Source of the DNA: Rhodanobacter sp. DHB23
GTDB taxonomy: Bacteria; Pseudomonadota; Gammaproteobacteria; Xanthomonadales; Rhodanobacteraceae
Direction of reading: 5' to 3'
Length of the DNA: 64,000 nucleotides
Assembly: GCF_014842975.1 (NCBI RefSeq)
Contig: NZ_JACYXK010000016.1
Location: 1-64,000 of the forward strand
Shown here: positions 22,963 through 53,300 of the stretch, piece by piece
How positions within the stretch are numbered: position 1 is the first letter of the stretch
Layout: every line of letters starts with the position of its first letter
The notes under the pieces: generated by a model
What the model saw: only the letters and a program-made list of their open reading frames with translations
Told to the model about the DNA's origin: nothing
The model's database searches: none
Program-made: the position numbers and the translations under genes

Positions 22963-23080
22963 GCCGGGAAAGTGCTCCTGCACTTTCCCGGCTCGCCCAA
23001 GTCCGGTACGTGCCCGGACTTGGCTCCGACAAATCAGGCACGTTGTGCCTGATTTGCGTGCGATCCATCCATGGATCGCA
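22963..23080. repeat. Array of four consecutive perfect hairpins
   Basis: Between the MCP-like gene and the STAS gene four unrelated perfect palindromes follow one another. H1: 13-bp stem, loop TCCT (22963-22992). H2: 10-bp stem, loop TACGTGC (22997-23023). H3: 12-bp stem, loop GTT (23030-23056). H4: 10-bp stem, loop CC within CCATCCATGG (23059-23080). No T-run follows any of them, so they are not classical terminators. H4 ends 10 bases before the Shine-Dalgarno of the next gene. Confidence 0.92.
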
Positions 23081-52697: not shown

Positions 52698-52738
52698 TGT
52701 TTGCTTTCCTTTCGCTATTGCTGCGATGGCCTGCATTT

Positions 52739-52826
52739 CCCCTCTCCCGCTTGCGGACGCGGGGAAGGGCCATGGATGGCCCTGCTTTGAGGAGCGAGGA
52801 AGAGGGGTAGGGGAGAGGGGCTTTTG
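52739..52826 (+). terminator. Possible terminator/long hairpin after bbp2
   Basis: CCCCTCTCCC at 52739-52748 is exactly complementary to GGGAGAGGGG at 52811-52820, followed by CTTTTGCTT. The enclosed ~60 bases include the short palindrome GCCATGGATGGC. The long loop makes terminator function uncertain; the arms also look like a dispersed repeat. Confidence 0.45.
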
Positions 52827-52880
52827 CTTGTGTGTTTGCCGCAAGTTTCAAAGCGGGTTCGTGCGCCTGTCGGCGCCCGA

Positions 52881-53044
52881 GTTACTTCTCTTTTGCGTGC
52901 CCAAAAGAGAAGTAACCAAGAGAAAAGGGCACCCCGCGGCGACGCTTTTCGCCCATCCATGGGCGAAAAGTCCGTGAGGCGTGGCCGGGCTTTTCGGCCG
53001 GACTCCTGTCCGGTCGAAAAGGCGAGTCCATCCATGGACTCGCC
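52881..53044. repeat. Second cluster of tandem hairpins
   Basis: Four hairpins in 164 bases. First: 14-bp perfect stem, loop GCGTGCCC (52881-52916). Second: 12-bp perfect stem around CCATCCATGG (52945-52970). Third: 14-bp stem with one G-T pair, loop TCCT (52990-53021). Fourth: 11-bp perfect stem around CCATCCATGG (53021-53044). The TCCT and CCATCCATGG centres also occur in the array at 22963-23080, on different stems. Confidence 0.92.
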
Positions 53045-53167
53045 CGCTGCGCGGCCTTGTCGTCCACACCTCACCGTCGCCGAGGGGCCCCGAAGAGCAG
53101 CGCGCTCCTGCGCGCAGAAGCAACAACCAAAGCAAAGAAAAAAACGTGAGCGGTATTCGTGCTTCTG

Positions 53168-53300
53168 CTCGTCATCCCGGCGAAGGCCGGACAAAAGCGA
53201 GCTACGCGAGCGTTGAACAGCCGAAGGCTCGCCCCTTCGGGGCCGCCCTGCGGGCGTTCTGCGCGCTTCGCGCTTGTCCGGCCTTCGCCGGGATGACGAG
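53168..53300. repeat. Inverted repeat with 27-bp perfect arms
   Basis: Arms 53168-53194 and 53274-53300 are exactly complementary, separated by 79 bases that hold further small GC palindromes (GCCCCTTCGGGGC; GCCCTGCGGGC). The right arm plus its inner flank matches the repeat at 51007-51066 in reverse orientation. Confidence 0.9.

Follow-up and report, generated by a model that had tools for sequence, protein, structure and literature searches.

Dispersed, covarying hairpin elements with A(N)GGAX loops in Rhodanobacter: putative binding sites for RsmA/CsrA

The closest described systems are the CsrB and RsmX/Y/Z RNAs, in which hairpins stand in a row and carry A(N)GGAX loops closed by a C-G pair (PMC4005645, PMC7652899; these and the other papers cited are drawn on for the available parts of their text). 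In the stem-loop structures of RsmE with RsmZ, the A(N)GGAX loop caps a stem whose closing pair is C-G; N and X vary, and N can be absent (PMC4005645). For E. coli, the CsrB repeat is given as CAGGA(U/A/C)G and the SELEX consensus as RUACARGGAUGU, and very stable stems are described as possibly unfavourable for CsrA (PMC7652899). RsmU (sRX061) of Xanthomonas campestris, which belongs to the same order as the genome studied here, is a 3'UTR-derived RNA with three to four GGA motifs that binds RsmA; it differs from the elements described below in being a single locus, and its RsmA-sequestering family is, in the available text, reported in Xanthomonas only (PMC7694677). On the DNA side, REPs, BIMEs and REPINs are short, high-copy intergenic palindromes that occur as dimers and in clusters and show complementary stem changes, REPs being marked by a GTAG or CGTC tag and by mostly family-specific stems (PMC3733652). 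The TAACTGA intergenic repeats of Beggiatoaceae are direct repeats without GGA, and in the accessible part of their paper the authors held canonical CsrA to be unlikely.

The elements of Rhodanobacter sp. DHB23 resemble CsrB and RsmX/Y/Z in their rows of hairpins and C-G-closed A(N)GGAX loops, but differ from them in being dispersed, in having many copies per genome, in lacking an Rfam match at the gathering threshold, in the pseudoknotted core of one of their families, and in being known from DNA alone. They came to light in a stretch of 64,000 nucleotides (the window), for which an initial annotation had proposed that two distant hairpin arrays carry the same loops on different stems. All eight hairpins that it listed are present, with stems of 10-15 bp, seven of them perfect and one with a single mismatch. 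Both arrays hold TCCT loops (22976-22979 and 53004-53007) and CCATCCATGG centres (23065, 52953 and 53028). Two hairpins were absent from that list: a TCCT hairpin at 53100-53115, and one at 52766-52783 that carries CATGGATG on the plus strand and is the fourth CCATCCATGG hairpin, on the minus strand. The latter is part of a repeat that resembles a terminator (type D, about 52737-52826), and the same context recurs elsewhere. Type D ends in AGGGGAGAGGGGCTTTT, and a similar repeat was found by eye beside 9 of the 13 full copies of family C described below. Just past the second array's element, at about 53168-53300, lies a long inverted repeat (CTCGTCATCCCGGCGAAGGCCGGACAAAAGCG ... CGCTTGTCCGGCCTTCGCCGGGATGACGAG), which is another type of intergenic repeat.

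The loop words are far more common than chance allows. The window contains CCATCCATGG four times, where 100 shuffles predict 0.19, and over the whole genome it is found 129 times (63+66), the reversed control word not once. We took a census of hairpins in 2.054 Mb, about half of the genome and including the window, with genes called by a simple codon-hexamer caller. Among intergenic hairpins with stems of at least 6 bp, the tetraloops TCCA (58), AGGA (TCCT, 34), CGGA (TCCG, 20) and GGGA (TCCC, 19) compare with 0.4-1.0 expected for each under a first-order Markov model, and the hexaloop ATCCAT was found 54 times against 0.0 expected. Since TCC-type loops lie so far above the expectation for palindromes, the loop-frequency check by which the initial annotation was to be refuted leaves it standing. 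Some occurrences of CCATCCATGG lack a good hairpin (in 12 of 59 distinct contexts the palindrome extends by at most 1 bp), and some of these weakly palindromic contexts are copies of a third family, A, with one arm changed.

The stems differ and stay complementary around the conserved loops, as had been proposed, and the covariation supports their being structural elements. What did not hold is their membership in a single family. No common linker was seen between the two arrays, which belong to two families, B and C, with the loop motif alone in common, and the idea of one family for both was rejected. A supposed third shared loop, CGTGCCC, also dissolved, because this stretch of the second array forms one side of a covarying pseudoknot and in family B the corresponding loop is not conserved. 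That the phenomenon is real, widespread and structural, with two families where one had been proposed, is strongly supported.

The family B element (22963-23080) consists of hairpins H1 (22963-22992, loop TCCT), H2 (22997-23023), H3 (23030-23056) and H4 (23059-23080, loop CATCCATG), and is named on the minus strand because its loops read A(N)GGAX there. It lies between a gene for an MCP signalling domain and one for a STAS domain, as assigned by Pfam; the window's chemotaxis protein has its best relative in Rhodanobacter sp. 7MK24 (95%). Among the best 80 other genomes, the element is present at the same locus in seven (L082, L083, L088, L103, L104, L121 and L143), in some of them decayed, and the remainder mostly have a short gap there, a few with other insertions. 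A profile search of the fetched sequence returned 33 distinct B-like matches, some of them weak, with stems that differ and linkers that resemble one another (about CTCGCC and GGCTCC); the better copies keep the TCC loops in their first and last hairpins. Tandem B-like units of 127 bp occur in a genome from another family of the order (G003, contig C1, L285-L297). An apparent strand polarity of CATCCATG among the matches listed for that genome is no basis for a claim, half of the stretches having been chosen at matches and the others holding few.

Family A is commoner than B or C, with 88 units in the 2.054 Mb, and shares only its loops with them. Its unit of about 65 bp, sometimes in tandem, has two hairpins, both of which were found in 55 of the 88 units at a median loop distance of 27. 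In the first data set, TCC was found in the first part of 37 of 41 units and in the second part of 35 of 41, where the parts were taken as the first 24 bases of the unit and those after its first 30, and TCC anywhere within them was counted.

The second array (52881-53044) is the middle of a larger element, family C, whose full length is 52863-53127. We assigned it to the minus strand, the putative strand of function, because its loops read A(N)GGAX there. It is flanked by a beta-barrel porin gene on one side and a gene for a KdpD-like kinase on the other (Pfam). Its own genome has 13 full copies in 2.054 Mb, and a whole-genome BLAST search returned 35 matches, 22 of which cover at least 200 of the 308 query bases. 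Matches occur in 84 of the 117 genomes from its taxonomic family, this genome counted. Of 273 other genomes sampled from the class, with the two best candidates scored in each, 11 match, for the most part at the pseudoknot end, and two genomes from another family of the order gave no match. Distant relatives of the pseudoknot end are found in several other gammaproteobacterial families, and one of these elements (L306) also has TCC in its later hairpins; a pattern filter returned no pseudoknot copy from L307-L312. Six of the 13 full copies form inverted pairs (C22:10409/10980, C24:22412/23028 and C19:31480/32047), separated by 38-85 bp and arranged with the GGA strands' 5' ends towards each other.

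Read along the plus strand, the element begins with P1 (52863-52876, GCGCC TGTC GGCGC; helix 1 of the predicted fold, with changes on both sides in 6 of 8 pairs) and P2 (52881-52916, the first listed hairpin of the array), a 15 bp helix of pyrimidines against purines whose loop holds the pseudoknot strand TGCC(C) at 52898-52902. A purine tract, AAGAGAAAA (52918-52926), and the pseudoknot partner GGGCA (52927-52931) follow. The closing helix P3 (helices 3-5) has its 5' arm (CCCC, GGCGACG) at 52932-52944 and its 3' arm (CGTCGCC, GGGG) at 53075-53087, and the long-range helix P5 (helix 8, 6 of 8 pairs covarying) joins GTGAGGCGTGG at 52974-52984 to CCACACCTCAC at 53064-53074. Three hairpins of the array lie within P3: P4 (52945-52970, loop CATCCATG, or CATGGATG on the minus strand), P7/P8 (52990-53021, loop TCCT at 53004-53007, AGGA on the minus strand; helix 10, 9 of 13 pairs covarying) and P9 (53021-53044, loop CATCCATG, C-ATGGAT-G on the minus strand). 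P11 (53100-53115), with a TCCT loop (AGGA on the minus strand), lies beyond the 3' arm. In P8, TCC/GGA is kept in 53 of 53 aligned copies while the stem varies. In P9, all 53 copies likewise have A(N)GGA, in 48 of them as a hexaloop ANGGAX, and mean column identity is 0.59 for the stem against 0.99 for the TCC columns. P4 and P11 are less constant, with TCC/GGA missing in 11 and 21 of the 53 copies, respectively.

For the alignment, 61 copies of family C were gathered, one containing N was removed, and seven of the remaining 60 were left out by choice (an insertion in one, incompleteness or poor alignment in several, and no strong reason for L242:1478-1767 and L250), which left 53. Over these, the 71 pairs of the predicted fold are formed in 97.0% of cases, against 82.0% after shuffling and 40.0-48.6% with partners slid by 1-3 columns, although this percentage leans towards the fold because the fold itself was derived from this alignment. 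In 48 of the 71 pairs both sides have changed, where shuffles give 31.8 and slid partners 14-22; the covariation score reaches 0.397, against 0.130. On one of the five measures, the count of additional pair types, the alignment did no better than the shuffles (86 against 85.5). The long-range helices covary as well.

The pseudoknot is borne out by the combinations that occur between the P2 loop and its downstream partner: TGGCC with GGCCA, TGCCC with GGGCA, TGTC with GACA, and TGCTC with GAGCA. Both variable pairs are formed in 55 of the 56 copies counted (out of 61, 58 of them with a readable loop), against a mean of 17.4 and a maximum of 31 in 5000 shuffles, and the sole failure (L266) looks like a misparse of the pattern. 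The purine tract between P2 and the pseudoknot partner is a mirror of the purine arm of P2. Across the 24 distinct combinations found in 58 of the 61 copies, mean mirror identity is 0.959, with a perfect mirror in 17 of the 24, and none of 5000 shuffles reached as high (0.864 and 7.5 of 24 on average); direct, non-mirror identity is 0.855. In the distant L306 copy the mirror relation is not clean. On the opposite strand, the mirror tract is a pyrimidine tract that runs parallel to the purine strand. This is the geometry of U.A-U and C+.G-C triples, and the tract could form a triple helix as RNA or as DNA. Family C combines strong covariation, a pseudoknot and an unusual tract that covaries as a mirror image in one structured element.

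Read on the strand opposite to that of the initial annotation, the loops agree with the recognition loop published for CsrA/RsmE, namely A(N)GGAX with a C-G closing pair. Among the 168 intergenic hexaloops of the form NNGGAN on stems of at least 5 bp, the first base is A in 130, and 128 of these 130 are closed by a C-G pair. N in the 130 loops is T in 69, G in 26, C in 18 and A in 17, and X is T in 101, C in 18, A in 6 and G in 5. When all ANxyzN hexaloops on stems of at least 6 bp are ranked by their central triplet, GGA comes first, with 121 of 493 intergenic loops in 52 distinct forms of stem and loop, against 20 of 1305 within genes. Counting hexa-, penta- and tetraloops once each, half of the genome has 176 A(N)GGAX hairpins in 94 gaps; CAGGATG is among the loops of family C, as is a single ACAGGGATGT. 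A single csrA gene (PF02599) is present in the genome, and its protein starts with a sequence close to E. coli CsrA.

Taken together, we consider it somewhat probable that families A, B and C are dispersed RNA elements that bind RsmA/CsrA, a reading under which the GGA strand would be transcribed and RsmA titrated. Its strongest point is that three differing families converge, with N and X free and with A, GGA and the C-G closure fixed. Each element, if transcribed on the GGA strand, would present two to four A(N)GGAX hairpins to RsmA dimers, a family A unit presenting two of them about 27 nt apart, and the copies would act together, binding or titrating RsmA or recruiting it to the transcripts in which they lie. 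Several A(N)GGA sites do lie on one strand (two hairpins in 55 of 88 units of A; P8 and P9 in all 53 copies of C, with P4 in 42 and P11 in 32). Against a CsrA/RsmA reading count the report that RsmU, the nearest characterised RNA, still bound RsmA with all four of its GGA motifs changed (PMC7694677), the possible disadvantage of very stable stems for CsrA, and the copies of family C in which P4 or P11 lacks TCC/GGA. At least 25 copies of CCATCCATGG were found in 36 of 122 genomes with csrA and in none of 28 without a csrA match (a hand count, with 8 of the 28 inferred), a comparison that lends weak support at best because the csrA-less genomes are mostly of one lineage. These 28 are out of 150 genomes in the order sample, and most of those listed are from one family (f10, genera g23 and g42), where the absence of csrA looks like loss within a lineage. 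More tentatively, we suggest that RsmA sequestration in the Lysobacterales could be a genome-wide load of repeats from at least three families, and not the work of one sRNA gene, with the scattered transcripts setting how much RsmA is free and family C being a new, pseudoknotted and possibly triple-helical class of RNA.

Of the alternatives, the one that survives best, unlikely as we hold it to be, is that these are selfish or domesticated DNA repeats of REP or MITE type, whose hairpins form in single-stranded DNA or as cruciforms, whose loop is contacted by a mobilising enzyme or nucleoid protein, and for which RNA is irrelevant. The elements are indeed dispersed, intergenic and numerous, family A and the G003 units occur in tandem, family C forms inverted pairs, and family B is patchy at its one locus (7 of the best 80 genomes). 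There is also no orientation preference relative to genes, and mismatches show no strand preference. However, nothing in the analysis backs the roles suggested by the initial annotation (nucleoid, transcription or transposase recognition); as to the last, the genome has two Y1_Tnp (REP-type) matches, neither with such hairpins within its flanks of about 1.5 kb, a result that concerns the Y1_Tnp type only. The covarying, multi-branched fold with its pseudoknot exceeds what is described for REPs (PMC3733652, in its available text), and in the copies of A, B and C that we inspected the orientation of the loops is constant within an element, as expected if one strand is read.

The genome has a separate REP-like repeat, with the fixed stem GCGCAC-CCT-GTGCGC, shared by 53 of 56 intergenic CCT triloops. 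Some of its copies are inverted pairs about 50 bp apart, and 32 of 55 have GTAG within 10 bp upstream. In REPs it is mostly the stem that is specific to the family, whereas in our elements the loops are fixed and the stems vary: 112 RTCCNT hairpins have 27 distinct 6-bp stems, against 4 in the 56 CCT-loop repeats, and so do not share the single stem of a REP. Of the 168 hairpins, 10 have a GTAG and 7 a CTAC no more than about 40 bp away, whereas 32 of the 55 fixed-stem copies have a GTAG next to them. For CGTC and GACG the raw counts near the 168 hairpins are 36 and 81. With many stems, and with no Y1_Tnp (RAYT) transposase next to such hairpins, REP was rejected as their main identity. The proposal that the elements fall outside the usual repeat classes is borne out both by this difference from the genome's own REP-like repeat and by Rfam, which gave no family at the gathering threshold over the whole window and weak matches only below it. 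With E values up to 10 allowed, no Rsm-type Rfam model matched B or C, and the sole Rsm-type match in the window below threshold, to rsmX, scored 15 bits against a cut-off of 56 and lies over the D repeat.

If RNA is involved, the TCC strand may be the one that is read, with UCC loops that serve small RNAs or 3' UTRs as C-rich or anti-Shine-Dalgarno loops, as reportedly in the Xanthomonas small RNA sX13. We regard this as improbable, on evidence about the strand that is mixed. Counted per hairpin, the TCC strand is sense slightly more often (56 against 35), and counted per gap there is no preference, the GGA strand being sense in 30 co-directional gaps and antisense in 30, with both orientations in 7 of 93 gaps. 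Family A folds better on the TCC strand (54 of 77 units), and on that strand the purine-rich loop 3 of the family C pseudoknot presumably has the usual H-type layout. In family C, by contrast, the consensus energy is -101.1 for the GGA strand against -92.0 for the TCC strand, and the GGA strand is more stable in 43 of 53 copies. Over the 66 pairs common to the predictions for both strands, wobbles occupy 22 columns (55 cells) if the GGA strand is read and 11 columns (31 cells) if the TCC strand is, whereas over the union of both predictions columns favour GGA by 27 to 16 and cells favour TCC by 105 to 81. The predicted energies and the wobbles at common pairs point to the GGA strand, in family C only. 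The last T of the loop, A on the GGA strand, also looks fixed by sequence and not by pairing; an A in first place in 130 of 168 loops, with an X of any base, fits A(N)GGAX but does not fit a UCCN tetraloop on an arbitrary closing pair. Against the GGA strand, no promoter fits the 5' end that the minus strand of the window's C element would have, the one sigma-70-like site being more than 500 bp away.

Still less probable, in our view, is that the hairpins are ordinary terminators or stabilisers of mRNA 3' ends whose loops agree through the ancestry of the copies alone. Divergent gaps are avoided, as this would predict (6 of 93 gaps with elements, against 240 of 1032 gaps of at least 60 bp), although neutral insertions would do likewise. 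The region of the C element, however, has one terminator-like site where 1.6 are expected by chance, and a scan for promoters and terminators around it gave nothing specific. The same loops recur across families with different linkers while the stems change, and other common loops here, such as GCAA and GAAA, are a separate class. Finally, the idea that template switching within palindromes corrects the arms without selection, with the loops conserved through recent spread, fits the near-equal single non-Watson-Crick pairs of the RTCCNT hairpins (14 G-U and 11 A-C, without strand preference), as expected if RNA pairing is not under selection, but is hardly credible given that P3, P5, the pseudoknot and the mirror tract covary too, which local palindrome correction does not explain, and that linkers and loops, and not stems, are similar across genera.

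In the literature searched, to the extent of its available text and with most subscription journals outside its reach, we found no description of such an architecture. In Xanthomonas, RsmA controls virulence and motility, and the classical RsmA-sequestering RNAs are, in the available text of the reports, described as not found there (PMC3937308, PMC7694677), rsmB homologues among them (PMC3937308). If the repeats described here bind RsmA, part of the missing antagonist would be spread over the genome as repeats, and the elements may help to explain how CsrA/RsmA, a global RNA-binding regulator, is held in check in this order. Even with a partner other than RsmA, family C is a covarying element that recurs across its taxonomic family (84 of 117 genomes) and that matched no Rfam model in the window.
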